In this document: piece after piece, positions 9,351-37,367 of the stretch
Layout of the letters: each line of letters starts with the position of its first letter
Position numbering within the stretch: position 1 is the stretch's first letter
Assembly: GCA_031291515.1 (NCBI GenBank)
Contig: JARLIW010000074.1
Coordinates: 1-43,395, forward strand
DNA: 43,395 bases
Reading direction: 5' to 3'
Source: Beijerinckiaceae bacterium
Lineage (GTDB): Bacteria; Pseudomonadota; Alphaproteobacteria; Rhizobiales; Beijerinckiaceae
Position numbers and translations under genes: made by a program
The notes under the pieces: generated by a model
The model's input: only the letters and a program-made list of their open reading frames with translations
Databases searched by the model: none
What the model was told of the DNA's origin: nothing

Positions 9351-11828
9351 CTAAAGCGTCGGCGCGCGCCAAATTTCTTCGGCATATTCGCGGATCGTGC
9401 GATCCGAGGAGAACCAGCCCATCGAGGAAATATTGTGGATTCGGGATTTGGCCCAGCCGGCGGTGTCCGTCCACAAGGCATCGACCTTGCTTTGCGCCGC
9501 CCAATAGGCATCGAAATCCCCGGCGACCATAAACGTATCGTAACCGAGAACGGCGTCGATCAGCGGCTTGTATCGATCGCGATCGTCGGGCGAGAACATG
9601 CCGTCGTAAATGGCGTCGAGCACATTTTTGAGGCGCGGCGAGAGGGCGGCGGCATCGCGGCCGCGGAACCCCTCGGCCCGTTTCGCCGCGACTTCGGCGG
9701 TCGTCAGGCCGAATATGAAAATATTGTCGAGACCGACGGCTTCGCTGATCTCGATATTGGCGCCGTCGAGCGTGCCGATCGTCAGCGCGCCGTTCAAGGC
9801 CATCTTCATGTTGCCGGTGCCCGAGGCTTCCATGCCCGCGGTTGAAATCTGTTCGGACAGATCCGCGGCGGGAATGATGACCTCGGCGAGGCTGACGTTA
9901 TAGTTTGGAAGGAACGCGACCTTCAAACGATCGCCGATCACGGGATCGTTGTTGGCGATTTGCGCGACATCGTTGGCAAGTTTGATGATCAGCTTGGCGC
10001 GGGCATAACTCGCCGCCGCCTTGCCCGCGAAAATCTTGACGCGCGGCACGTAAGCGGCGTCAGGCTCCTGCTTGATTTCGAGATACAGCGCGGCGGTCGA
10101 GAGAATATTGAGCAGTTGACGCTTATATTCGTGGATGCGCTTGATCTGTACGTCGAACAGGGCATCCGGGCTGATCACGACGTTGAGACGGTCTTTGACG
10201 ACGCTGGCCAAAGCCTGCTTGCTGCGGCGGCGTAGCTTTGCGACACGTTCCTGGATCGCCGCATCTTCGGCGAAAGCGGCAAATCCCTTGAGCAACATCG
10301 GCTGGTCGAGAACGCGGGGTGAAAGCGTCTCGGCGAGCAGCGACGTCAGTTCCGGATTGGCCTCGTAAAGCCAACGGCGGAAGGTGATTCCATTGGTCTT
10401 GTTTGTGATCCGGCCGGGATAGATCGAGTCGAGATCGTGGAAGATCGTCTCTTTCATGAGCTTGGTGTGGAGCGCGGAGACACCGTTGATCCGTCGCGAC
10501 CCGATAAAGGCGAGATGCCCCATGCGGACGCGCTTGCCGTCGCTTTCGTCGATCAGCGAGGCGGCGGCGAGGCCGGGCTCGTCGTGGATGATCGCGCGGA
10601 CGCGTTTCATGTGCATGTAGTTGATCAGAAAGATGATCTGCATATGCCGAGGCAGCAGATCGTTCATCAGAGCGACGGGCCAAGCCTCGAGGGCTTCGGG
10701 CAGCAACGTATGATTCGTGTAATTGAGCGTCGCCGAGGTGATTTTCCACGCCTCGGTGAAATCGAACCCTTCGTCGTCGATCAAAATCCGCATCAGCTCC
10801 GCCACCGCGATCGAGGGATGCGTATCGTTCATGTGGATGGCGGCATGGTCGGCCAAGTTGGCGAGGCTCTTGTGCCGGGACAAATGACGGCGAACCAAAT
10901 CTTGCAACGACGCCGAGGTGAAGAAATATTCCTGCCGCAACCGCAACGCTTGGCCCGAGGGAGTCTCGTCGCTGGGATAAAGCACGCGGGAAATCGATTC
11001 GGCGTAGGCGCGCGCCGCGAAAGAGCCGACATGGTCACCGCGATTGAAGGCCGTGAGTTCGATCGGATCGATCGAGCGGGCGGACCATAGCCTTAAAGTA
11101 TTGGCGTGTTTGCCCTGCCAGCCGATGATGGGCGTGTCGAAGCCGGCCGCCATGACCGTCTCCCGCGGGTGCCAAATATCGCGTGGCTTGTCTTCCTCGC
11201 TCGTCACATGTTCGACGTAACCGCCGAAGTGAATGGGATAGACGACCTCCGGCCGTTCGAATTCCCATGGATTGCCGTGGCGGAGCCAGTCCTCGGGCAC
11301 TTCATGTTGCCAGCCATCCGAAATCACCTGCCGGAACAGGCCGAGATCATAACGAATGCCGTAACCGTAGGCAGGCAGGCCGACGCTCGCCATGCTCTCC
11401 ATGAAGCAGGCGGCGAGGCGGCCGAGACCGCCGTTGCCCAAGGCCGCGTCGGGTTCTTCCTGGCGAATTTCGTCGAGATCGACGCCGAGCGCCGCGAGGG
11501 CGTCGCGGGCCGTTTCGGTCAGACCGAGATTCACAAGCCCGTCGAACAAAAGTCGCCCGATCAGAAATTCCACGGAGAGATAATAGACGGTCTTTCCGTC
11601 GGCTTGATGAGTCCGGCGCGTCGCGCTCATCCAGCGATCGACGATTCGATCGCGGACGGCGAGGGCCAGGGCCACGAACCAGTCGTGTGGGCTCGCGGTC
11701 TTCGTGTCCTTGCCGACAGCGTAAATCAGCTTGGCCAGAATGGCCTCGCGAAGTTCTTCGCTGTCTTTCGGCGCGGCCCACGATTCCGGGGCCTCTTTTT
11801 TCGCGGCTTCGAACTCGGTTTTCGGCAT
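9351..11828 (-). CDS. glgP: Glycogen/starch/alpha-glucan phosphorylase
   Basis: Phosphorolytic removal of glucose-1-phosphate from alpha-1,4-glucans (GT35, PLP-dependent), mobilising stored glycogen. I take the ATG at 11828 (MPKTEFEAAKKEAPESW), giving 825 residues; the track's 50 extra N-terminal residues are non-coding in character. Recognisable segments: YLSVEFLIGRLL and EEPDAALGNGGLGRLAACFMES in the N-terminal half, HMNDTHPSIAVAELMR, KTNGITFRRWL and the PLP-lysine region EASGTGNMKMALNGALTIGT in the C-terminal half. No other glycogen-metabolism gene is adjacent, so it appears to be a stand-alone transcription unit, convergent with egtBD and divergent from rsfS. Confidence 0.97.
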   Translation of the reverse strand: MPKTEFEAAKKEAPESWAAPKDSEELREAILAKLIYAVGKDTKTASPHDWFVALALAVRDRIVDRWMSATRRTHQADGKTVYYLSVEFLIGRLLFDGLVNLGLTETARDALAALGVDLDEIRQEEPDAALGNGGLGRLAACFMESMASVGLPAYGYGIRYDLGLFRQVISDGWQHEVPEDWLRHGNPWEFERPEVVYPIHFGGYVEHVTSEEDKPRDIWHPRETVMAAGFDTPIIGWQGKHANTLRLWSARSIDPIELTAFNRGDHVGSFAARAYAESISRVLYPSDETPSGQALRLRQEYFFTSASLQDLVRRHLSRHKSLANLADHAAIHMNDTHPSIAVAELMRILIDDEGFDFTEAWKITSATLNYTNHTLLPEALEAWPVALMNDLLPRHMQIIFLINYMHMKRVRAIIHDEPGLAAASLIDESDGKRVRMGHLAFIGSRRINGVSALHTKLMKETIFHDLDSIYPGRITNKTNGITFRRWLYEANPELTSLLAETLSPRVLDQPMLLKGFAAFAEDAAIQERVAKLRRRSKQALASVVKDRLNVVISPDALFDVQIKRIHEYKRQLLNILSTAALYLEIKQEPDAAYVPRVKIFAGKAAASYARAKLIIKLANDVAQIANNDPVIGDRLKVAFLPNYNVSLAEVIIPAADLSEQISTAGMEASGTGNMKMALNGALTIGTLDGANIEISEAVGLDNIFIFGLTTAEVAAKRAEGFRGRDAAALSPRLKNVLDAIYDGMFSPDDRDRYKPLIDAVLGYDTFMVAGDFDAYWAAQSKVDALWTDTAGWAKSRIHNISSMGWFSSDRTIREYAEEIWRAPTL

Positions 11829-23845: not shown

Positions 23846-23917
23846 AGAGATCAAGCCCAGACGACCTCGGGCTTCGCCATTCGCCGGAGGCGTCCTCTTA
23901 GCATAGGATCAACTTTG

Positions 23918-24742
23918 ATGACATCGCCCAACGATCTCACGACCCTCGCGGCGCTCAAGGGGTGGCTTGGAATCGGGAGCACCAATGATGATATCGTTCT
24001 CGCCTCTCTGATCACCAATCTCAGCATCGCGATCCTTAATAATCTCGGGCGCCCCCAAATCCTGCCGTCGGTTTACACGGAGGTTTATGACGGCGCGGGC
24101 GAGCAATCCGTTCTATTGCGTCAATGGCCGGCCTGCGAATTATTAAGCCTCTCGGCGGATGGCATACCGGTCACGATCGCTCAAAGCGGCTATTTGCCCG
24201 CCCGAAGGTCCTTGTCGGCGATCCTGGATGGTCCCGACGCGGCCCCGCCAGGGCGCATGCAGCGCGTCTCTTTGCTGGGCGGTTTGTTCCCCCACGGCAT
24301 TCAGAACATCACGGCGTCCTATCGCGCGGGATATGAGGTGACCGCCGAAGCCGCCTTGATTCCGTCGAGTCCGCCCTACGTCGTCACGGCGGCGCAACCC
24401 TACGGGTGTTGGCAAAGCGACGGCGCGGTCACTTACGCCAATGGGCTCTCACTCGCGCCCGCGACGTCGCCGGGACCGGGCACATATAACGCGGAGAGCG
24501 GCGTCTACACCTTTTCCGCCAGCGACGCCGGAGCGAATATCATTTTACGATATGGCTATATTCCCTCTGATTTAATGCGTGCCTGCCAGGAATGGGCCGG
24601 GGAGCGATACGCCTACCGCGCCCGGATTGGCCAGAGTTCGAAAAGCCTTGGCGGGCAAGAGACGACATCCTTTATCGTCAAGGATATTCCCGACTTTGTA
24701 TCGCGGCTCCTTCAGCCCTATAGGCGCGTGGCAACACCATGA
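23918..24742 (+). CDS. Head-tail connector protein with beta-module insertion
   Basis: 274 residues from the ATG at 23918. The N-terminal ~45 residues (LTTLAALKGWLGIGSTNDDI, LASLITNLSIAILNNLGRP) and the C-terminal ~60 residues (SDLMRACQEWAGERYAYRAR ... IVKDIPDFVSRLLQPYR) form the helical connector fold of gp6/gp15-type adaptors. Residues ~148-215 hold an inserted module ending GVYTFSASDAGANIILRYGY. A clearly related module occurs in the tail tube protein about 1.7 kb downstream. It overlaps the next gene by 4 bp (ATGA). Confidence 0.8.
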   Translation: MTSPNDLTTLAALKGWLGIGSTNDDIVLASLITNLSIAILNNLGRPQILPSVYTEVYDGAGEQSVLLRQWPACELLSLSADGIPVTIAQSGYLPARRSLSAILDGPDAAPPGRMQRVSLLGGLFPHGIQNITASYRAGYEVTAEAALIPSSPPYVVTAAQPYGCWQSDGAVTYANGLSLAPATSPGPGTYNAESGVYTFSASDAGANIILRYGYIPSDLMRACQEWAGERYAYRARIGQSSKSLGGQETTSFIVKDIPDFVSRLLQPYRRVATP

Positions 24743-25768: not shown

Positions 25769-26506
25769 ATGTACAGTTTTGGCTCGGGTGTGCTGATCGG
25801 CACGCGGACGGATATCGCTAATGCGACGCCGGTAAACTTCGGCCTGGTCCAGGAAGTCACGATCGACGAAGCGGCCTCTGTCAAGGAACTCTATGGGCAG
25901 TTTCAGCACCCGATCGCGCTCGCGCGCGGAACGATCAAGACAACCGGAAAAGCGAAGGTCGCGCGAATATCGGGCCTCGCCTTTGCGAATCTCTTTTATG
26001 GCGCGACTCCGGCCGCCGGCCAGGTCGCGACGTCGTTCGCCGAGATTGCGACGATACCGGCAAGTAGTCCCTACACTGTGACGCCGGTGAATTCCGCGAC
26101 GCTCGTCGACGATGCGGGGCTCGTTTACGCGGCGACAGGACTTCCCTTGGTCAAAGTGGCATCGTCGCCCGTCGCGGGGCAATACTCTCTCGTAGGCGGC
26201 GTGTATACACTGAGCGCATCAGACGCCGGCAAGGTTGTCTTGGCGACCTATACCTATAGCCTCCCGACGAGCGGGCAAAACTATGTCGTCTCCAACCAGT
26301 TGACCGGAACGACCCCAACCTTTTCGGCTCACTTCTTTACGACCTTTCAAGGTCAAACGGTCTCATTGAAGCTCAACGCGTGTACATCGAGCAAGCTCTC
26401 GTTTCAGACCAAAATGGAAGACTACGTGCTCCCGGAATTCGATTTCTCGTGCTTCGCGGATGCGACGGGCACGATCATGACCTGGTCATTCTCGGAGGCC
26501 TCCTAA
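25769..26506 (+). CDS. Tail tube protein with beta-module insertion
   Basis: 245 residues. The N-terminal part (MYSFGSGVLIGTRTDIANAT, FGLVQEVTIDEAASVKELYG, TGKAKVARISGLAFANLFYG) and the C-terminal part (PTFSAHFFTTFQGQTVSLKL, SKLSFQTKMEDYVLPEFDFS) form the tube fold. Residues ~97-165 are an inserted module (SSPYTVTPVNS ... GGVYTLSASDAGKVVLATYT) homologous to the one in the connector protein. Its TAA stop overlaps the next ATG by one base. Confidence 0.8.
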   Translation: MYSFGSGVLIGTRTDIANATPVNFGLVQEVTIDEAASVKELYGQFQHPIALARGTIKTTGKAKVARISGLAFANLFYGATPAAGQVATSFAEIATIPASSPYTVTPVNSATLVDDAGLVYAATGLPLVKVASSPVAGQYSLVGGVYTLSASDAGKVVLATYTYSLPTSGQNYVVSNQLTGTTPTFSAHFFTTFQGQTVSLKLNACTSSKLSFQTKMEDYVLPEFDFSCFADATGTIMTWSFSEAS

Positions 26507-27111: not shown

Positions 27112-28374
27112 ATGGCGGATGACGTTCAGATTACGTTCTCGGCGGATATTTCCGATCTTCAAAAAGGGCTCGCGGATGCCACAAGCGCGGTATCCACAAC
27201 GACGGGAGTCCTTCAGTCCGGGGCCGCGCAAATTGGCGCTTCGTTCGCGTCGCTTGGCCAAGCCTATGCGGCGGGCATGGCGCAACGGCTCGACAGCGCG
27301 CGCAATTACAGCGACGAGGCGCTCGCCATTGCGCGCGCTGGCGACAAGGCCGAAACGGACATCGCGCTAAATGGCGTGAAGACGAAGGAATCCGCCGTAA
27401 AGGGCGAGGCGCAACTCTCTCAAATGTCGCGCGAGCAAGAGCTCGCCGCGCTGCTTGCGCTTGAAAGCGATCGCGAGCAGATCGAACTTCGTCACCTCAC
27501 ATTTCTGCAATCGACCTATCAGGACAACGCAACGAAATTTGCAAACGTCCAGCGTCAGATCGACGAACTCGCGTCGCAATCGGCCCTCCGCCGCCAAGAT
27601 ATCGAGCGTAGGGTTAATAGCGAGATCTATGCCGATTACAAACGGACCTTCGAGCAGGCCGGATCTAGTGTCTCGACCGCGATCATGGGGATGATCAAAG
27701 GCCAAGAAACGCTCCGGCAAGCCGTGTCGAACGTTCTGCTGTCGATCGTCCAGTCCTTCATTCAGGCCCGGATCAAAAGCGTCGCGGATTGGGCGGCCGG
27801 CGTTCTAACGGAGACGACGGCGACGACGGCCGGAGAAACGGCCAAAACAAGCGCCGTGGTCGCGGGAGCCGCGGCGCGAACGAGCGCGCAGACGAGTGCC
27901 TCGGCAGCGGGCGCGGCGTCGGCGATCGCAGCGATCGGGCAGAGCATTGCAGCGTCCGCGGCGGAGACCTTCGCGGGCATTTTCGGCTTTCTATCGCCGT
28001 TGCTTGGGCCCGCGGCGGCGGGACCGGCGAGCGCCGGTCAGGCCTCGGTTCTTGCGGCGGGCGCGGCGCTCCCATCGTTCGACGCCGGTTCTTGGAATCT
28101 CCCCGCCGACATGGTTGCTCAGGTTCATCAAGGGGAGATGATTATTCCGGCAGGTCCCGCGGCGCGCTTGAGATCGATGACGTCGAGCGGCGGCGGAGGC
28201 GGCGATGTCCATGTGCATCATGCGACGCATTTTAATGTCTCGGCGATGGATAGCCGCGATGTCAAACGATTTTTCAATGGGAATGGCAAGGCCATCCTTG
28301 GCGCCATCAACGATTCAGTCCGCAACGGCGGGCATCTCGGCCTTCGCAATCTTAGGGGAAATAACGGAATATGA
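27112..28374 (+). CDS. Tape measure protein (short)
   Basis: 420 residues, short for a siphophage tape measure. N-terminus MADDVQITFSADISDLQKGL with helical S/A/T-rich repeats, coiled coil to ~200 (QIELRHLTFLQSTYQDNATK), then a very Ala/Thr-rich hydrophobic segment (AAIGQSIAASAAETFAGIFG) suited to membrane insertion, and a C-terminal QVHQGEMIIPAGPAARLRSM motif seen in lambda-like tape measures. At ~0.15 nm per residue this predicts a tail of roughly 60 nm. It overlaps the next gene by 4 bp. Confidence 0.85.
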   Translation: MADDVQITFSADISDLQKGLADATSAVSTTTGVLQSGAAQIGASFASLGQAYAAGMAQRLDSARNYSDEALAIARAGDKAETDIALNGVKTKESAVKGEAQLSQMSREQELAALLALESDREQIELRHLTFLQSTYQDNATKFANVQRQIDELASQSALRRQDIERRVNSEIYADYKRTFEQAGSSVSTAIMGMIKGQETLRQAVSNVLLSIVQSFIQARIKSVADWAAGVLTETTATTAGETAKTSAVVAGAAARTSAQTSASAAGAASAIAAIGQSIAASAAETFAGIFGFLSPLLGPAAAGPASAGQASVLAAGAALPSFDAGSWNLPADMVAQVHQGEMIIPAGPAARLRSMTSSGGGGGDVHVHHATHFNVSAMDSRDVKRFFNGNGKAILGAINDSVRNGGHLGLRNLRGNNGI

Positions 28375-30629
28375 CCGGCCTGCTTGGCGTGAATTTGTTA
28401 CCGGCCACGGGAGAGTGGGTTTACGATCCAATACCCCACCGCGCGGCGCAAGCCAACGGGGCCGGGCCGGTCACAGTCAACCTCAATGCGGCGCCGGCTG
28501 GGACCGTGACCGATTATTCTATTTCCATCGATCGATTGCAGTCGCAATATCCCGATTGCGCGACGGTCTCGCTTGTCGTGGCATGGTTTGGCAATTCAAC
28601 AGACGTCGCGCGGTGCGAGATATATCCTTCGACGAATTATATCGGAGGAAGCTCGGAACGTCTGGTCGATGGCGTTTGGTCTAGCGATCCTTGGCGCTGT
28701 TCGGGCCTTTCCCTCTCCTCGTCTGGCCTCATTCCGATCTCGGAAACCAATGGGGCGGCCTCTTATGGCGGCACGCCGTCCGACCCTTCGATTGTTCGAT
28801 GCCTTCGAGACCTCAAAGCCCGCGGTTTTCGCGTCGTCTTCTATCCGTTTATTCTGATGGACTGCGCCGGTTTGCCCTGGCGTGGGCGGATAACCTTTGT
28901 CGGCGCGGATATTACCGCGGCGGCCACGACGGCGATTCTCAACTTCTTGGGCGATGCCACGCTCGCGCAATTCGCGGTCGATAGCGTCAATCTCACCGTC
29001 AATTATTCCGGCCCTGCGTCCGACTGGACGTATCGTCGGATGATTCTGCACTATGCAAGCTTGTGCGTTCTCGCCGGTGGCGTCGATCTCTTCTTGTTGG
29101 GATCGGAATTTGTCGGGTTAGAGACGGTCCGCGGACCGCAATGGACGAAGGCCGGCGCTGTTGGCGCGGCGGGGACTGCGACTTGGGACTATCCCTTCGT
29201 CGCGGGTCTCGGCGCGCTCGCAAGCGATGTTCGCACTATTTTCGACAATGCGGGGTTAAGCCGCGACTCAGGCAATCTCAAAAATCTCATTGCCTATTCG
29301 GCCAATTGGTCGAATTGGATGGGCGTACAACATTCGGACTCGGCGGGACAGTGGCCACATCTCGATGCGCTTTACGCGCACCCCGATATCGATCTCGTGA
29401 GCTTTGACAACTACCTCCCGCTGTCCGATTGGACAACCGGAGACGGAGGGCTCGATGCCGCCAATTGGTGTGGTTCTTTACCAAATCAATGGCCCCCTTC
29501 GGCGTCTTCGATCAACGGACTTGGCCTTACCACGCCGCCTAGTCTATATGATAAGACCTATCTCAAGGCGAATATCGAAGGCGGTGAGAAGTTCTCATGG
29601 TTTTATGATGATTCGACGAGCTATGGACGAGGCCTGGATCCAAGGGGATCGGATCTGCAAGTGTCGCTTCCGGGGTCGGACCGGTTGCAACAGAGTCGTT
29701 CGACTTATTCCCCGGGACAGCAGCTTCTCGCCAACAAGCAGTTGCGATGGTGGTGGAACAATCCGCATCAAGCCATCTATGATATAGGAGATGGCGCTGG
29801 GCAGATCCCGCGCGGTCCCCCATCGGCCTGGGTTCCTCAATCGAAATCGATCACGTTTGCGGAGTTTGGGTTCCCAACATGTGACCGGTCCACGAACCAA
29901 CCAAACGTCTTTTACGATCCGCGGTCGACGGAAAGCGCGACGCCTTTCTGGTCGATTTGGGACGCATCCGCCGGGTCCGCGTATTCGCCCCGGCGCGACG
30001 ATCTCTTGGCTCGTCTCGCCTTGGAGGCCGTGATCGAATATTGGACGACGGACGGCAAAAACGAAATCGGCCCTGGCGGCATCTTGATGGTTCAGCCGGC
30101 ATTTATGTCGGCATGGAATTGGGACGCTCGGCCGTTTCCAGCCTTTCCGCTGCTTGGCGTTTGGGCCGATGGCGTGGATTGGCCGGCTGGAACGTGGATA
30201 GATGGCAAAGGGCCATCGGTCGCCCCGTCAGCTCCCGATCTCGCGCCGCCGCCGCCGTCCGTGCCTATCTTTCCTACGCTGTCCGGTCAGTCCTTCTCTG
30301 TGCATTACAGGCCCTCGTTTCGAAATCGCATCGCCAATCACGCGTCGGGGCGCGAAACGCGCGCGGCTTCGACGACCCTCGCACTTTGGGACATCGAATT
30401 GAAATTTGATATTCTGGGTGACGGCGCTGCCGGTGATCTCGCGACCTTGGTGAGTTTCTACGCCTCCTTGGCTGGCGCGGCCAATCTGTTCACTTTTCCG
30501 CTTCCGGCCAATTTGGGGGCCGGCGCCAGTCTCGTCTGCCGTTTCAACGACGATCGGGTCGATGTCGAAGAGTTTGGTCGACAGCTGTTTGCGAGCGGTG
30601 CGGTTAAGATCAAGAATATACGCGTCTAG
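28371..30629 (+). CDS. GTA TIM-barrel domain fused to a DUF2460-like distal tail domain
   Basis: 752 residues. Residues ~170-560 match the TIM-barrel (glycoside-hydrolase-like) domain of GTA protein g15: LFLLGSEFVGLETVRGPQW, IAYSANWSNWMG, HPDIDLVSFDNYLPLSDW, SITFAEFGFPTCDRSTNQPN. Glu in GSEF and AEFGFP are candidate catalytic acids. The last ~120 residues (FPTLSGQSFSVHYRPSFRNR ... LVCRFNDDRVDVEEF) are a DUF2460-type domain paralogous to the next gene (RPSF--R-A-H-SGRE-R shared). In RcGTA the barrel lies inside the g15 hub protein instead. A role in penetrating or degrading the cell envelope is likely but inferred. Confidence 0.85.
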   Translation: MTGLLGVNLLPATGEWVYDPIPHRAAQANGAGPVTVNLNAAPAGTVTDYSISIDRLQSQYPDCATVSLVVAWFGNSTDVARCEIYPSTNYIGGSSERLVDGVWSSDPWRCSGLSLSSSGLIPISETNGAASYGGTPSDPSIVRCLRDLKARGFRVVFYPFILMDCAGLPWRGRITFVGADITAAATTAILNFLGDATLAQFAVDSVNLTVNYSGPASDWTYRRMILHYASLCVLAGGVDLFLLGSEFVGLETVRGPQWTKAGAVGAAGTATWDYPFVAGLGALASDVRTIFDNAGLSRDSGNLKNLIAYSANWSNWMGVQHSDSAGQWPHLDALYAHPDIDLVSFDNYLPLSDWTTGDGGLDAANWCGSLPNQWPPSASSINGLGLTTPPSLYDKTYLKANIEGGEKFSWFYDDSTSYGRGLDPRGSDLQVSLPGSDRLQQSRSTYSPGQQLLANKQLRWWWNNPHQAIYDIGDGAGQIPRGPPSAWVPQSKSITFAEFGFPTCDRSTNQPNVFYDPRSTESATPFWSIWDASAGSAYSPRRDDLLARLALEAVIEYWTTDGKNEIGPGGILMVQPAFMSAWNWDARPFPAFPLLGVWADGVDWPAGTWIDGKGPSVAPSAPDLAPPPPSVPIFPTLSGQSFSVHYRPSFRNRIANHASGRETRAASTTLALWDIELKFDILGDGAAGDLATLVSFYASLAGAANLFTFPLPANLGAGASLVCRFNDDRVDVEEFGRQLFASGAVKIKNIRV

Positions 30630-30660
30630 CTGATTTAGGGTAGGTGATGCGGGGGACGCC

Positions 30661-31281
30661 TTGACAACAACGTTGATGTTTCCACGATTGGCAGGCCAGG
30701 GCTGGTCCGTTCATAAGAGACCCAGCTTTTCGACCCGCGTCGCGAGCCATGTTTCGGGGCGAGAGGTCCGGACATCGCTTTATTCTGGTACACTATACGA
30801 ATATGAGGTCGCGTTCGATGCTCTCGTCTCAAATGGTCAAGTGACAGGGCCGCTCGCAGCGGTGGGAGGAACGTCGCTTCAAACCCTCTTGGGATTCTAT
30901 CTCGCGTGCCAAGGGCAATTCGGAACATTCATTTATGTCGATCCGACCGACAATTTCGTCGAGGCCCAGGCGGTTGGAACCGGAGACGGCGTGACAACCG
31001 TGTTCACTCTGTCGCGGACGATCGGGTCTTTCACGGAGCCGGTTTCCTATGCGACCCAGGTCGACACCGTCTATCTGAACGATATCGCGCAAACGGATGT
31101 GTCGCTCGTCACCCCGAACTCGATTAGTTTTGCCACAGCCCCATCGTCCGGCGCCGCAATTACCGCCGATTTTTCATACGGATTCTTATGCCGGTTTCTT
31201 GACGACCAGCAAGATTTCGAAAACGTGATGAGCGGTCTTTGGACGCTGTCATCCCTGAAATTTAGGAGTGTAAGGTCGTGA
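30661..31281 (+). CDS. DUF2460 distal tail protein (GTA g12-like)
   Basis: 206 residues; starts at a TTG or, 15 bases on, at an ATG (LMFPRLAGQGW). Begins with FPRLAGQGWSVHKRPSFSTR, SGREVRTSLYSG, then a central extra beta region (AVGTGDGVTTVFTLSRTIGS) and a C-terminal GFLCRFLDDQQDFENVMSGL. This is the DUF2460/TIGR02217 family, the distal tail ring of RcGTA (g12). It closely parallels the C-terminus of the preceding protein. It overlaps the DUF2163 gene by 4 bp (GTGA). Confidence 0.88.
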   Translation: MTTTLMFPRLAGQGWSVHKRPSFSTRVASHVSGREVRTSLYSGTLYEYEVAFDALVSNGQVTGPLAAVGGTSLQTLLGFYLACQGQFGTFIYVDPTDNFVEAQAVGTGDGVTTVFTLSRTIGSFTEPVSYATQVDTVYLNDIAQTDVSLVTPNSISFATAPSSGAAITADFSYGFLCRFLDDQQDFENVMSGLWTLSSLKFRSVRS

Positions 31282-32144
31282 GATCCGCGTCCCCGGCCCT
31301 TGTCGCATATCTTGCCGCGCAGAAAGCCGCGCGGGATGCTCCCATGCTTATGGCCGATTGCTACACATTTACGCTCCGATCTGGATCTATCTACACCTAT
31401 ACCAACGCCGATGTGCCGATCACGATGAACGGCTTCGTGTTCGCGGCCAACTCGGTATTGGTCGATGGGCTAACCTTCAAATGCACGACGACATTGGACG
31501 TCGATACGCAACATATTTCGATCGCGGCGCGCCCCACCGATACGGTCAACGGCGTCCCCTTTCTTCTGGCGCTCCACAACGGCGTCTTTGACGGTTGTGG
31601 GGTCAAGCGCGAGCGAGCCTTTTTGTCGAGTTGGCAATCGCCCCCGATAGGGAGTGTTGTACTTTTCCAAGGGCTCGTTACCAGCGTCGATCAAATTGGA
31701 CGCACGAGCGCCGAAATCACCGTCGCTTCGGATCTCGTCCTTCTCGATTTGGACATGCCGCGTAATCTTTATCAGCCGACCTGTTGCCATACACTCTTCG
31801 ATTCCGGCTGCGGGCTCGTCAAGAATGCGTTTGGCAGCGTGGGAGCCGCCGGCGCAGGCTCAACCGTCAGTTCTATTGTTTGGTCGGGGGCCTCATCGAC
31901 TTTCGCGCAGGGCACGGTCTACTTTTCATCCGGACTGAATGCCGGAGCTTCGGCGAACATTAAGGCAGTGACAGCCGGCGCCCTGATCCTAAGCTATCCC
32001 TTGGAGTTTACGCCAGCGGTTGGCGATGCCTTCACGGCCTATCAAGGTTGTGATCATACGATCGCGACATGCCAATCCAAGTTCAATAATCCCGCGAATT
32101 TTCGCGGATTTCCCTTCGTGCCGCCGCCCACCAGCGCCTATTGA
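31278..32144 (+). CDS. DUF2163 / BR0599-type tail hub protein (GTA g13-like)
   Basis: 288 residues. N-terminal DUF2163 domain (MADCYTFTLRSGSIYTYTNA, LVDGLTFKCTTTLDVDTQHI) and C-terminal BR0599 domain (MPRNLYQPTCCHTLFDSGCG, then GCDHTIATCQSKFNNPANFR GFPFVP). The conserved cysteines in PTCCHTLF, SGCG and GCDH...TCQSKF correspond to the cluster-binding cysteines reported for the RcGTA hub, so an Fe-S site is possible. Gene order DUF2460-DUF2163-NlpC/P60-hub equals g12-g13-g14-g15. Confidence 0.9.
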   Translation: MRSASPALVAYLAAQKAARDAPMLMADCYTFTLRSGSIYTYTNADVPITMNGFVFAANSVLVDGLTFKCTTTLDVDTQHISIAARPTDTVNGVPFLLALHNGVFDGCGVKRERAFLSSWQSPPIGSVVLFQGLVTSVDQIGRTSAEITVASDLVLLDLDMPRNLYQPTCCHTLFDSGCGLVKNAFGSVGAAGAGSTVSSIVWSGASSTFAQGTVYFSSGLNAGASANIKAVTAGALILSYPLEFTPAVGDAFTAYQGCDHTIATCQSKFNNPANFRGFPFVPPPTSAY

Positions 32145-32153
32145 GGGACTGCT

Positions 32154-32606
32154 ATGACTGAAGCATTGCAGCGCGCCGCCGTGGTTGCGGAAGCTCGGCG
32201 CTGGATCGGCACGCCCTATCATCCTTGCGCCGATCTTCTTGGCATTGGGGTCGATTGTGGGATGCTCCTCGTGCGCGTTTTCGTGGACACGGGTCTTTGC
32301 GACCCGTTCGATCCGCGGCCATACGCCCAGGACTGGCATCTACATCGAGGGGAAGAGCGTTACCTCGGATTCGTCTTCGATCGCTGTTGCGAACGAAAAT
32401 ATCCTGCCCCCGGGGACGTCGCGGTCTTTCGATATGGCCGTTGCTATTCCCATGGTGGAATCGTGACCAAGGCCTCGCCCGTGACGATCGTCCACGCCTT
32501 CTCGCCATCGGGGTGCGTTTTGGAAGAAGCGATCGAAAGCAATTCCGTCCTCAGGGATCCGAAACGCGAATGTCGCTTCTTTACCAGGTGGGATAGCTCG
32601 GCATGA
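32154..32606 (+). CDS. NlpC/P60 peptidase (GTA g14-like)
   Basis: 150 residues. Catalytic Cys near residue 35 in GIGVDCGMLL and His near residue 99 in GRCYSHGGIV, with ARRWIGTPYHPCADLLG in front: a complete NlpC/P60 domain that cuts peptidoglycan peptides. In RcGTA the g14 enzyme sits in the tail tip to open the cell wall during DNA delivery; the same role is inferred here. It overlaps the hub gene by 4 bp (ATGA). Confidence 0.92.
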   Translation: MTEALQRAAVVAEARRWIGTPYHPCADLLGIGVDCGMLLVRVFVDTGLCDPFDPRPYAQDWHLHRGEERYLGFVFDRCCERKYPAPGDVAVFRYGRCYSHGGIVTKASPVTIVHAFSPSGCVLEEAIESNSVLRDPKRECRFFTRWDSSA

Positions 32607-35569
32607 GCATTTTTCGAGCCAGGGGCAACTCCACCGTCGTCACGCCACAATACACGGGCTTGCAGGTTCAGACCGCGAGTAGCGCCTTACCGATTCCGAT
32701 TGTCTATGGCGTCTCACGATTGGCTCCGAACCTTATTTGGGCGGACCACTTTCAGACATTTCCGGAATATACGTCGCAGGGAGGCAAAGGCGGAGGACAA
32801 AGTGTAACCGGATATACCTATTCGACAGCCCTCATCTTCGGGATTTCCGAAGGGCCGATCAGTTCGATTGGGACGATCTTTGGTCCCCAGGGCAAAAAGA
32901 CGCTCTCGGATTTCAACTTTTCTATTTTCAACGGAACGACACCACAGTCGACCTGGGGATATCTCACCGCAAGCTATCCCGCCTCCGCCCTCGCATATCA
33001 GGGGACAGCTCTGGTCGCATCGAGCAGCTTTGATTTAGGCGAGAGCGCATCGATCGATTCGATCGCCTTTGAGATTTACGGCGTGCTATCCACAAGCGGC
33101 GTCGTCAACGCACTGGATGCTGATCCGGCACTCGTCATCGCCGATTATTTGACCAACGCGCAATATGGCGTTGGCTTCCCCGCCGGCAGCATCGACGCGA
33201 CGGCTCTATATGGGGCATCCGGCGGTTGTTCCTATCAAACCTATTGCCAAGCATCTGGCTTGGCTTTCTCGCCGTGTTTGACGGACCAGGAGCCCGCGAA
33301 TACGACGCTGGCGCGTTGGCTTCAACTGACGAATAGTGCCGCGATTTGGTCAGACGGCCGATTGAAGATCATTCCCTACGGGGATGCCGTCGTAACGGGA
33401 ACGCTCAAGACTGGTCAGGCCGTCACCTTCCAACCAAATACCGCATCCGCCTACGATCTCGACGACGACGATTACATCTACGACGGGTCTGGCGATCCTG
33501 TCACAATTTCGCGAACGGACCCGTATTCGGCGTCCAACGTGGTGCGGCTCGAGGCGCTCGATCGCGCGAACCAATATAGTCCAACGACCATGGAGGCGCG
33601 CGACCAAAACGCAATCGAGCTTTACGGCCTACGCATCGCTTCGACCATTACCGCGCATGAATTTTGCGATACAGCGATGGCGGCTATTTCCGCGCAACTA
33701 ATCCTCCAACGTGGGCTCTATATCCGGAATACATATTCGTTTCGCCTATCATGGGAATATTGTCTGCTCGAACCGATGGACTTGGTGACCCTCACCGATA
33801 CCGGTTTGGGTCTCGATATGGTACCCGTCCGGATCATTGAGATTGAAGAAGATACGTCGGGTCTTCTGACCGTGACGGCTGAGGAATTCCCGGGGGCTGT
33901 CGCGACCGCGACCGCTTACCCGGTCCCGACCGTGACGAATACGCCGATCAACAGAAACGTCGCGCCGGCTCCGGTGAATACACCGGTGATTTTCGAACCG
34001 CCTTCCGATCTCACTGGCGGCTCTCCTCAAATCTGGGTGGGACTGTCCGGGGGCGTAAGCGGCGTAGCCGATCCAAATTGGGGTGGCGCGACGATCTACG
34101 TTTCGACAGATGATGTCACCTATGCGGAAATAGGGACGGTTTCATCCCCGGCCAAGCAAGGAATTTTGTCCGTCGCGGTGACGGCGGCGTCGGCGATCCC
34201 CGCAACATCGCAATTGAATGCAAATTTCACCGAAAGCGCCGCGCTCGTTGCGACGGTGGGCGTCAATGCCACCAATCCCGCGCTCTGCTTGGTTGGTGGT
34301 GAAATTATTGCTTATTCCGCCGTGTCTCTTTCCGGCGCGTACACTTATTCACTTGGAAATCTTCAGCGCGGTTACGTCGGTCAGCAGAGCGGAGCGCATG
34401 CAGTCGGCGTTCCCGTTCTTTGTCTCGATAGTGCCGTCTTTCACTATGTTTTTCCGCAGAATTTGATTGGCCAAGAAATCTACCTGAAATTCGCTAGCTT
34501 CAACATATTTGGGGTCGCCGCGCAGGACCTTTCGACATGTGCCACCTACGCGATCACGCCACAGGGTTCCGGTATCTTTGGCCCGGTCGCGCAATCCCTC
34601 AGCCAGGGGACGGCTTTGGATGAAGGCGCCGCAAGTCTGGCTGTCACGGAATCGGATACTTACGGTTTTGCATCGGACCCGTATACAGATACGATCGATT
34701 TGGGGTTGGCGTCGGACAATCCTACCATGCTAAGCGTTGGGTCGGGTGGGACGGGCGCCTCCTCGGCTCAAGCGGCCCGAGCGAATATCGGCGCCGCCGC
34801 GTCGGGTCATAATTCCGATATCGTCAGTTTGACCGAGCTTGGCGGAATAGGAATCAACACCGCCGTCGATACAAGCGTAAACCTACTGTCCGTCAAATCA
34901 AAATCCGTTTTGTTCGATAACGTCGGGGGCGGTGTCCAGCTCATCGTCGATAAGGCCGCGACGAGCGACAGTGGTTCGATTCTCTATCAAACCGGATATT
35001 CAACACGGGCGCTCGCCGGTTTGCTCTCAAGCGATCGTTATCGTATTTCCGTTTCGGCCGCGGGGACGAGTTTTACGCAAGCCCTCGATATCGATCCCGG
35101 GACGGGTCATGTCGGGCTAGCCGGTTACACCGCGGATTCGAATAACGCTTTAGGGATCGCGGGAACCTCGTTCCTGTTTACCGCGTCCGTCGATTCATGC
35201 CGGTTTACATTCAACAAAGCCGCGACCGCGAATGACGCGAGCCTGACGTTCGAGACCGGTTTTTCGGCGCGAGCGCTCGCGGGGCTTCTGGGGTCTGACG
35301 GATATCAATTGAAGGTATCGCCGGATGGTTCGACCTTTTTCCAAGTCTATACCGTCGACCAAACCACCGGAAATCTCGCGATTAAAGCGCTGGTTTCCGC
35401 CGCGTCCTACACGGTGGCGACATTGCCGACCGGCGTAAACGGGGCCCTGGCCTTTGCATCGAATGGTTTGAAGGTGGGCGAAACGACCGGTGGCGGGACC
35501 GGCGTGATCGTCGCATTTTCGAATGGATCATGGCGCCGTTTGTCCGATGACAGCGTTGTCGTAGCATAA
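32603..35569 (+). CDS. Tail hub/tip protein (GTA g15-like 'megatron' without TIM barrel) with repeated C-terminal modules
   Basis: 988 residues. The N-terminal ~430 residues have the phage-tail hub pattern (ALPIPIVYGVSRLAPNLIWA, ALIFGISEGPISSIGTIF, DPALVIADYLTNAQYGVGFP, LARWLQLTNSAAIWSDGRLK, YSFRLSWEYCLLEPMDLVTL). Residues ~440-680 are beta-rich fibronectin-like connectors. The TIM barrel present in RcGTA g15 is absent. The C-terminus has two tandem 80-residue modules (KAATSDSGSILYQTGYSTRA and KAATANDASLTFETGFSARA as landmarks) and a terminal GGGTGVIVAFSNGSWRRLSD motif common in fibre-type receptor-binding tips. It is likely baseplate plus receptor-binding. Confidence 0.88.
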   Translation: MSIFRARGNSTVVTPQYTGLQVQTASSALPIPIVYGVSRLAPNLIWADHFQTFPEYTSQGGKGGGQSVTGYTYSTALIFGISEGPISSIGTIFGPQGKKTLSDFNFSIFNGTTPQSTWGYLTASYPASALAYQGTALVASSSFDLGESASIDSIAFEIYGVLSTSGVVNALDADPALVIADYLTNAQYGVGFPAGSIDATALYGASGGCSYQTYCQASGLAFSPCLTDQEPANTTLARWLQLTNSAAIWSDGRLKIIPYGDAVVTGTLKTGQAVTFQPNTASAYDLDDDDYIYDGSGDPVTISRTDPYSASNVVRLEALDRANQYSPTTMEARDQNAIELYGLRIASTITAHEFCDTAMAAISAQLILQRGLYIRNTYSFRLSWEYCLLEPMDLVTLTDTGLGLDMVPVRIIEIEEDTSGLLTVTAEEFPGAVATATAYPVPTVTNTPINRNVAPAPVNTPVIFEPPSDLTGGSPQIWVGLSGGVSGVADPNWGGATIYVSTDDVTYAEIGTVSSPAKQGILSVAVTAASAIPATSQLNANFTESAALVATVGVNATNPALCLVGGEIIAYSAVSLSGAYTYSLGNLQRGYVGQQSGAHAVGVPVLCLDSAVFHYVFPQNLIGQEIYLKFASFNIFGVAAQDLSTCATYAITPQGSGIFGPVAQSLSQGTALDEGAASLAVTESDTYGFASDPYTDTIDLGLASDNPTMLSVGSGGTGASSAQAARANIGAAASGHNSDIVSLTELGGIGINTAVDTSVNLLSVKSKSVLFDNVGGGVQLIVDKAATSDSGSILYQTGYSTRALAGLLSSDRYRISVSAAGTSFTQALDIDPGTGHVGLAGYTADSNNALGIAGTSFLFTASVDSCRFTFNKAATANDASLTFETGFSARALAGLLGSDGYQLKVSPDGSTFFQVYTVDQTTGNLAIKALVSAASYTVATLPTGVNGALAFASNGLKVGETTGGGTGVIVAFSNGSWRRLSDDSVVVA
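34880..35383 (+). repeat. Two tandem 240-bp coding modules in the hub C-terminus
   Basis: Module 1 at 34880-35119 and module 2 at 35144-35383, each 80 codons, separated by 24 bp. Shared protein landmarks: DKAATSDSGSI versus NKAATANDASL, STRALAGLLSSDRYRISVS versus SARALAGLLGSDGYQLKVS, and DPGTGHVGL versus DQTTGNLAI. They are diverged at DNA level, so the duplication is old or imported as a pair. Confidence 0.8.
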
Positions 35570-35579
35570 GAGGTGAGCG

Positions 35580-37367
35580 ATGAGTGTGCAGGTTAAACGG
35601 CGGCGGGAATCCGCGACCTTCTTGGCAAGCTTCGTTGGAGCGCAAGGCGAGCTTATTGTCGATACAACAAACAATCGGGTTCAAGTCCATGACGGCGCGA
35701 CCGCTGGCGGCTTTGCGGCGGCGAAATTGGCGGAGGTTCTGCAAACGGCCAATAACCTCGCGGACCTTTCCAACAAGACAACCGCGCTCGGGAATCTTGG
35801 GGCCGTCGCAAGCACGCAAATCGGCGTCGCAAACGGGATTGCCTCGCTCGATAGCACCGGTCATGTGCCCTCCACACAGCTTCCGGCGTCAATCGTGGGC
35901 TCCCTGCAATTCCAGGGAACGTGGAATGCCACGGCCAATAGTCCTGCAATTACATCGGGGACGGGGACGAAAGGGAATTTTTTTAAAGTCGCGGTCGCGG
36001 GTACGACAGCTATCGACGGCAACTCCCAATGGAACGTCGGGGATCTCTTGCTATTCGATGGAACGGTGTGGGACAAGATCGATGGCGAATCCTCGGAGGT
36101 GGTCTCCGTCGCTGGCCTGACGGGTGCCGTGACTGCTGCCCAAATTCTGGCGGCGATCATCGCGAATGCGGGATCGACCGGATCTGGCGCGTTTGTTCTG
36201 GCGGCGTCGCCGACCCTCGTCACCCCGAATCTCGGTACGCCGTCGGCTGTCAACTTAGGCAACGCGAGCAACCTCGCCCCTACGGCCCTTCCCGGCTTGA
36301 CCGGCGACGTCACGTCGAGCGCTGGGAGCGCGGCGACGGTCATTGCCGCCAATGCGGTGACCAACGCCAAAGCGGCACAAATGGCCGCGGGAACGCTCAA
36401 GGGTAACAATACGGGCTCGACTGCAAATGCAAGTGATTTGACGGCTTCTCAGGCGGCGGCCCTATTGCCCGCCGTGGTGGGGGATACGGGGTCCGGCGGT
36501 ACGAAAGGGTTGGTCCCCGCGCCAGGCGCGGGCTCGGCCGCCAATAACGAAGTGCTGGGCGCGGGCGGCGCGTGGATCGGCCAGATGGCCGGATTCCGCA
36601 ATCGCTTACACAACGGTTCGTTTGCCATCAACCAGCGCGTTGTCGCCGGTACGGTGACGCTGGCCGCCGGGGCCTATGGGCATGACGGCGTCAAAGGAGG
36701 ATCGAGCGGCGCGACCTATACGTTCGCCACGTCCGGCCTCGATACCACGCTGACGATCACGGCGGGCTCACTGATTTTGCCTATCGAAGCAAATCTGATC
36801 GAGGGAGGTTCCTACATTTTGTCACAGAGCGGAACCGCGCAAGCGCGCATCTGGCAAGGAACCGGCTACACCGGTTCGGGCAGCTATGCCGCAATGCCTT
36901 TAACCGCGACGAGTTTGACCGCGAATACTCAGACCAATGTCGAATTCTCCACTGGAACCGTGCTTCGCCCACAATTCGAGCCGGGTATCGCGGCAACGTC
37001 CTTTGAGCGTCGCGCGCTGGGCGTCGAGTTGATCCTGTGTCAGCGCTATTTCCAAAAATCGTACAATATCGCTTCTGCGCCCGGTTATGCGCCGGGCAAC
37101 GGCGGCTGTTCCATTACGCAAGGGGCTCCTTCGGGGAGCTGCAACATTTACTTGCCCTTTGGCGTGCGCATGCGAAGCGCGCCTTCCGTCACGACATACG
37201 ATGGAACCGGCGCGGCTGGGAAGGTGAGCTACTACGGGTCCGGGTCTTGGAACGGGGGAGGTGCGTTAAGTTGGTGGAACTTCACCGAGGCAGGTCTCAG
37301 CATTCAAGCGAATATCGTCAGCTCTGCGCAGATTAATTTCGACTATGTTGCGAGCGCGGAGCTTTGA
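35580..37367 (+). CDS. Tail fibre protein
   Basis: 595 residues. The N-terminal ~60 residues (RRESATFLASFVGAQGELIV, RVQVHDGATAGGFAAAK) match the attachment domain common to phage fibres of the Mtd-N/hyaluronidase type. Middle region: low-complexity beta-helical repeats (GNASNLAPTALPGLTGDVTS, AAGTLKGNNTGSTANASDLT). C-terminal ~270 residues begin FRNRLHNGSFAINQRVVAG and include TSFERRALGVELILCQRYFQ, a widespread phage carbohydrate-binding tip. Likely receptor recognition. No reverse transcriptase or template repeat is nearby, so no diversity-generating retroelement. Confidence 0.85.
   Translation: MSVQVKRRRESATFLASFVGAQGELIVDTTNNRVQVHDGATAGGFAAAKLAEVLQTANNLADLSNKTTALGNLGAVASTQIGVANGIASLDSTGHVPSTQLPASIVGSLQFQGTWNATANSPAITSGTGTKGNFFKVAVAGTTAIDGNSQWNVGDLLLFDGTVWDKIDGESSEVVSVAGLTGAVTAAQILAAIIANAGSTGSGAFVLAASPTLVTPNLGTPSAVNLGNASNLAPTALPGLTGDVTSSAGSAATVIAANAVTNAKAAQMAAGTLKGNNTGSTANASDLTASQAAALLPAVVGDTGSGGTKGLVPAPGAGSAANNEVLGAGGAWIGQMAGFRNRLHNGSFAINQRVVAGTVTLAAGAYGHDGVKGGSSGATYTFATSGLDTTLTITAGSLILPIEANLIEGGSYILSQSGTAQARIWQGTGYTGSGSYAAMPLTATSLTANTQTNVEFSTGTVLRPQFEPGIAATSFERRALGVELILCQRYFQKSYNIASAPGYAPGNGGCSITQGAPSGSCNIYLPFGVRMRSAPSVTTYDGTGAAGKVSYYGSGSWNGGGALSWWNFTEAGLSIQANIVSSAQINFDYVASAEL

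Follow-up and report, generated by a model that had tools for sequence, protein, structure and literature searches.

In a tail module carried by a Beijerinckiaceae bacterium contig, one gene encodes a glycosidase-like barrel fused to a second copy of the distal-tail (Dit) domain, and its product is probably a virion tail-tip glycosidase held by this Dit2 anchor, which would have originated from a duplicated Dit and an acquired barrel. The window, meaning the whole stretch of DNA that was analysed, comprises 43,395 nt of the forward strand of contig JARLIW010000074.1 (GCA_031291515.1), and open reading frames for proteins of 752, 206 and 988 aa have been found at the places listed in Table 1. 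As had been proposed in a first-pass annotation, the 752-aa protein carries the GTA TIM barrel and ends in a DUF2460 domain. In Pfam searches, GTA_TIM (PF13547) covers residues 219-593 with 330.9 bits (E 9.9e-99), against a cut-off of 27 and over profile positions 1-299, and DUF2460 (PF09343) covers residues 638-709 with 35.2 bits (E 1.1e-8; cut-off 30.4).

Table 1. Features of the tail module in the window, numbered from its first nucleotide
Feature	Coordinates	Strand	Basis and remarks
Tape measure protein	27112..28374	+	Immediately upstream, sharing 4 bases with the fusion gene; phrog_2854, E 7e-16
TIM-Dit2 fusion gene, 752 aa, ATG start: glycosidase-like barrel and second distal-tail domain	28371..30629	+	Pfam; 95 distinct fused homologues
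Barrel module, residues 1-613	28371..30209	+	Homologous to RcGTA megatron residues 219-762 ('peripheral domain'), remotely to GH113 beta-mannanases
Glu246 codon (GSE, after strand 240-245), predicted acid/base	29106..29108	+	Aligned with the GH113 IGTEL glutamate
Glu498 codon (AEFG, strand 494-499), predicted nucleophile	29862..29864	+	Aligned with the GH113 LLEVG glutamate
Pro-rich linker, barrel to Dit2 domain	30210..30269	+	Sequence; low pLDDT at 583-629 in the full-length model
Dit2 domain, residues 634-752, DUF2460 core without Dit insertion domain	30270..30626	+	Alignments; AF2; Foldseek
Dit1, free-standing distal-tail protein, 206 aa, DUF2460, TTG start	30661..31281	+	Pfam, E 1.4e-40; Dit tree
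Dit1 insertion domain, about residues 94-172, absent from the window's Dit2	30940..31176	+	Alignment; borders approximate
Baseplate hub, g13/TIGR02218 homologue	31278..32144	+	TIGR02218, 92.8 bits (cut-off 80.5); Pfam PF09931, PF09356
NlpC/P60-type tail peptidase, g14-like	32154..32606	+	TIGR02219, 57.4 bits, below the 81.9 cut-off
Megatron (g15) homologue without barrel, 988 aa: adhesin-like domain, then Phage-tail_3	32603..35569	+	PF13550, E 1e-35; no PF13547

Tail fibre-like proteins starting with an Mtd_N domain (PF18454) are encoded at positions 35580-37367 of the window and at 10824-11417 of the prophage locus L197. A hint from phrog_8234 had raised the possibility that the Dit1 insertion domain is common to a tail protein (25769-26506) and an adaptor (23915-24742), for which BLAST gave no support.

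The barrel has its closest characterized counterparts in the megatrons of the gene transfer agent RcGTA (Rcc01698, g15) and of phage R4C, with which it shares homology, the same catalytic glutamates and the same tail-gene neighbourhood. A phmmer search aligned the 752-aa protein with residues 219-762 of the RcGTA megatron (6tba_8A, E 1e-68), a region designated the 'peripheral domain' (Bardy et al., PMC7296036). The full-length AF2 model is of moderate quality (pLDDT 67.7), and its Foldseek matches are led by the R4C megatron (8gtc_M, 5e-25), followed by GH113 beta-mannanases (~1e-5); the peripheral domain has likewise been called mannanase-like by the R4C authors (PMC10276861). Profile-profile comparison of the barrel with GH113 proteins (hhalign) gave 97% and E 6e-11, with Glu246 falling on the glutamate of the IGTEL motif and Glu498, in a low-threshold extension of the alignment, on that of LLEVG. 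The motifs quoted in the first-pass annotation are all present, and the glutamates of GSE and AEFG are invariant across the family, being found in 65/65 fused and 134/134 megatron barrels (199/199). The GH113 beta-1,4-mannanases (clan GH-A) therefore provide the best enzyme fold match with both catalytic glutamates aligned, although the window barrel carries large insertions and stays below the Pfam cut-off for PF22612 (24.4 against 27 bits), which some relatives pass (e.g. L044, 34.0 bits).

The function of the RcGTA megatron barrel has been stated as unknown (PMC13420450). The invariance of both GH113-type glutamates in fused and megatron barrels alike indicates that the barrel is probably a working enzyme, and from its sequence it would be a retaining glycosidase acting on host surface polysaccharide. 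It is unlikely that it serves instead as a non-catalytic carbohydrate-binding domain, comparable to the carbohydrate-binding modules (CBMs) of known evolved Dits. Such a role would agree with the placement of the peripheral domain among carbohydrate-binding accessories by the R4C authors (PMC10276861), and no activity of the barrel has been reported in the literature searched, but both GH113-type glutamates are invariant in 199 sequences across two locations.

Paralogy between the C-terminus of the 752-aa protein and the whole of the next gene, also suggested at first pass, is borne out by BLASTP (38% over 92 aa, E 4e-17), with the C-terminal CRF-x-DD block aligning as well (E 4e-5). The C-terminal domain reaches 60.8 bits against a DUF2460 profile built from relatives, and the next gene encodes a full-length DUF2460 protein (139.4 bits; cut-off 30.4). 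Against TIGR02217, which describes the Rcc01695-type distal tail protein with a cut-off of 136.65, Dit1 scores 27.1 bits, as a divergent relative, and Dit2 gives no match. Structure prediction, proposed earlier as a check on the C-terminus, returned a confident AF2 model for the last 133 residues (pLDDT 88.5), whose best PDB folds are the Dit or tail-tip ring proteins of T1, DT57C, T5, lambda, RcGTA and R4C; most of these matches have a probability of 0.9-1.0 and E about 0.01, and none reaches E 0.001. By the confident model and its best matches among tail-tip ring proteins, the C-terminus has a Dit-type fold. Dit1 and Dit2 thus resemble the DUF2460/Rcc01695 distal tail proteins (PF09343, TIGR02217) in family and in predicted core fold, whereas Dit2 differs from them in bearing a 600-residue enzyme-like N-terminal domain, in the absence, in the window, of the insertion domain, and in standing next to a normal Dit as an additional paralogue. 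In phage records (L201, L202, L203, L206 and L208) and in phrog_2913, the label 'glycoside hydrolase' is frequent for distal tail proteins in which the family model found is DUF2460, and such labelling may have coloured published inferences on the R4C Dit.

The megatron homologue of the window, a 988-aa protein with Phage-tail_3 (PF13550) and a weak match to Rcc01698_C, lacks the barrel, as had been noted earlier: GTA_TIM was not detected in it by Pfam profile search, and the part corresponding to RcGTA residues 219-762 is missing, being matched instead by the 752-aa protein. Alignment with the RcGTA megatron begins at residue 47 and runs through the adhesin-like domain (47-207), directly after which Phage-tail_3 follows at residue 227. 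Scores against the GTA megatron equivalog NF048004 (800-bit cut-off) are divided accordingly between the two proteins, with 422.8 bits for the 752-aa protein, in the peripheral part only, and 124.6 bits for the 988-aa protein, in the adhesin-like and later parts. In the solved structures of RcGTA and R4C the barrel is inserted in the megatron, present in three copies per virion, whereas in the window it is encoded by a gene of its own, where a Dit-type domain follows it, and is missing from the megatron. The N-terminal 'iris/penetration' stretch is absent too, since the window megatron begins only at the counterpart of RcGTA residue 47; in a 2026 preprint, the iris density of RcGTA has been reassigned to the C-termini of the tape measure protein (PMC13420450).

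A search for the TIM barrel plus DUF2460 architecture in other phages, which had been put forward as a further check, has revealed 95 distinct fused proteins in viral contigs and prophages, many of them from Rhizobiales, and 59 non-redundant pairs of fused and free-standing Dits. The named host genomes are those of Beijerinckia, Rhodoblastus, Roseiarcus and other Rhizobiales or Hyphomicrobiales, with cultured strains among them; prophages of Rhodoblastus acidophilus DSM 142 (L114) and Roseiarcus fermentans DSM 24875 (L115) each hold an intact fused gene. Within the close barrel family in viral contigs, every complete ORF ends in DUF2460, and downstream of the fused genes lie a free-standing Dit (except at loci with a sole Dit), the hub and a barrel-less megatron. 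The two locations of the barrel have not been found together: none of the 129 loci with a barrel inside a long megatron holds a fused gene or two Dits, and no megatron barrel was detected in about 118 fused loci (a redundant count). Four fused loci had been flagged for the megatron profile (e.g. L219, L226), and the domain tables trace this to a match of about 18 bits in the C-terminal tail of the fused proteins themselves. Among the matches listed for isolated phages in INPHARED, those to the barrel stop at residue 613, and the ten that were inspected all lie inside long megatron-type genes, without fusion; plasmid matches to the barrel stop at or before the same residue. A fold search of BFVD returned no viral protein spanning barrel and Dit, its two strong matches being entries of 1439 and 1010 aa, presumably megatrons. 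No description of a barrel-Dit fusion was found in the open-access papers searched.

The occurrence of so many fused proteins in independent assemblies, cultured strains included, has already refuted the idea that the fusion is an artefact of assembly or annotation, which is now practically out of the question even though the barrel ORFs of a few loci (L039, L054, L211 and L243) are split by frame breaks and could be read in its favour. In genome G063, two partial barrel matches, roughly the halves of one barrel, lie about 15 kb apart on contig C3 (353552-354040 and 369265-369717), where the barrel gene has possibly been split by an insertion.

In a small set of records (L034, L044, L049 and L298) the barrel is fused to the only DUF2460 domain present. 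The domains of L034, L044 and L049 fall inside the Dit1 clade, with an AU test against their grouping with Dit2 giving p 0.027, and carry the Dit1 signature HKRP...STR[VI]ASHVSGREVR right after the usual linker; L050 and L054 are seemingly of the same type, with broken frames. As a sole Dit must form the distal ring, a ring Dit can evidently carry a barrel, although, these records being fragments, it is possible that a second Dit lies beyond them. Another arrangement has been detected in the prophage L197/L297 (8241-10814 of L197, minus strand), which has a different tail type and in which the same barrel is followed by a phrog_1302 domain. This domain is the only copy of its family in that genome, and the name 'distal tail protein' is here the PHROG label alone; comparison of the L197 C-terminus with PDB, Pfam and NCBIfam returned nothing useful.

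Further additions to Dits have been observed. In the isolated Brevundimonas phage Polewnik, a glycine-rich domain of the ALK/LTK type precedes the Dit in an 816-aa distal tail protein (L289, 5125-7575), and this tail lineage seems prone to adding domains at the N-terminus of its Dit. In L255 (2407-5535), where no fused barrel gene is in view, the Dit has an 837-residue C-terminal extension (phrog_5939 tail protein, with a weak BNR match), and L284 (6140-7639) shows an apparent in-frame fusion of Dit and hub (499 aa).

The history of the fusion has been approached through separate trees. The Dit tree groups every fused Dit2 domain in one clade (100/100), with the free-standing Dit1 clade as its sister (97/90), which indicates one tandem duplication of the distal-tail gene, in keeping with the first-pass annotation; Dit1 and Dit2 together are nested in the Dits of barrel-less modules. 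In the hub tree, rooted on barrel-less phages, such modules (Acinetobacter, Pseudomonas and Brevundimonas phages, L263 and L251/L273) are the successive outgroups of the fused clade, while the lineage with the barrel in the megatron forms a separate clade; support is 100/98 for the fused clade together with a few later losses, and lack of the barrel has been checked for two complete phage genomes and for three contigs. This arrangement indicates that the duplication and the gain of the barrel took place in a lineage with a barrel-less megatron. Related tail modules without a barrel gene and with a longer megatron (about 1170 aa) occur at L246/L247, L275, L277, L287 and L288. The hub tree places those sampled (L246, L275 and also L255) within the fused clade, as apparent secondary losses.

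The first-pass annotation had the barrel moving from the hub protein to the second Dit. The name 'megatron' belongs to g15 in the RcGTA literature, where the hub is g13, so that the protein meant was the megatron homologue, the hub proper being the g13 homologue of Table 1. The proposed move is half right: the barrel was gained by a lineage without one, whereas its derivation from the lineage's own hub or megatron does not agree with the hub tree. Excision from the lineage's own megatron, with movement onto the duplicated Dit, would suit the clear homology of fused and megatron barrels and their mutually exclusive location in the two genes. Without an outgroup, the barrel tree consists of two clades and gives no direction; rooted with GH113, it nests fused barrels within those of megatrons (84-92% support), which would also suit excision and weakly favours a donor of the megatron type, although the outgroup branch is long, the rooting weak, and the grouping of all megatron barrels in one clade is not rejected (p 0.22). 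Against this, barrel-less modules, confirmed as such in two complete phage genomes, branch between the barrel-in-megatron and fused clades, and the outgroup is barrel-less too, so that direct movement would need several extra losses, and we consider it quite improbable. The likely donor is the megatron of another phage or GTA.

The favoured history and role can be described as follows. A tail module with a barrel-less megatron duplicated its distal-tail gene, and one copy was joined to a barrel from elsewhere, probably from a GTA-type megatron. Sequence shows the fusion, the duplication, the single origin of Dit2, its Dit-like fold and the conservation of the catalytic glutamates, whereas placement in the ring, orientation, activity, substrate and donor are inferred. 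The Dit2 domain would anchor the 752-aa protein in or against the distal tail ring, with the GH113-like barrel projecting outward on its flexible linker, and by cutting host surface polysaccharide the barrel would allow the tail tip to reach the envelope. The claim of an enzymatic barrel on a tail ring thus persists in part, the barrel being probably enzymatic and its anchor of the Dit type, and the contrast once drawn with the hub applies to the megatron.

Where exactly Dit2 sits is a question of geometry within this explanation, and its answers are not wholly exclusive of it. The mean identity of the Dit core is 0.44 for Dit2 and 0.62 for Dit1, with Dit2 lower in 1687/1711 locus pairs, and alignment indicates that the window's Dit2 subclade has lost the insertion domain. 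These features suggest that Dit1 stays the main ring, with Dit2 specialised as a carrier, either in a second ring or in a mixed one; Dit2 may bind less tightly, or elsewhere. A glycosidase whose Dit2 lies outside the Dit1 ring, in a second ring of its own, in a mixed 3+3 ring or as an external decoration, is accordingly a possibility to be taken seriously, though we lean against it. It draws on the same divergence of Dit2, on the retention of Dit1 beside it in nearly all loci, and on the tailspike TspA, which has been described as able to bind the outer face of the distal tail and tube (PMC13420450). The sole-Dit fusions speak against it, as they show that a barrel-bearing Dit can be the only ring protein, and those of Dit1 type, present in at least three loci, argue for a position of the fusion on the tail ring.

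A broader proposal, which we hold tentatively and at somewhat less than even confidence, is that of a dedicated enzymatic ring, in which a diverged Dit paralogue would display six barrels, or three if the ring is mixed, with siphophage distal rings acting as interchangeable platforms for enzymes. It counts three sites for the barrel, namely in the megatron, on a duplicated Dit and on the only Dit, and possibly also an unrelated Dit family.

The best reading of the 752-aa protein is that of an enzymatic 'evolved Dit' (evoDit), which would assemble into the ring and digest surface polysaccharide. Known evoDits belong to siphophages of Gram-positive hosts and carry CBMs in the galectin-domain loops of the phage's Dit (PMC7291167). 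The likeness consists of a Dit with an extra carbohydrate-active domain for surface sugars. Here, in contrast, the phages are those of Alphaproteobacteria and the domain is an enzyme-type barrel, which is usually found on the duplicated copy of the Dit and which, rather than being inserted in the loops of the Dit peripheral domain, by which evoDits are defined, lies N-terminal to the Dit core.

If the placement on the ring is correct, an enzyme would be located on a part of the tail for which only sugar-binding additions have been described. The fusion also widens the idea of the evolved Dit from sugar binding in phages of Gram-positive bacteria to what is probably an enzyme in alphaproteobacterial phages, and it shows that the tail module was built by gene duplication and domain acquisition. 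In these phages the barrel occurs naturally as a free-standing module held by a simple anchor, with natural sole-Dit variants and barrel-less relatives, and such variants, together with the conserved catalytic residues, make both its enzymatic function and its dependence on position directly testable.
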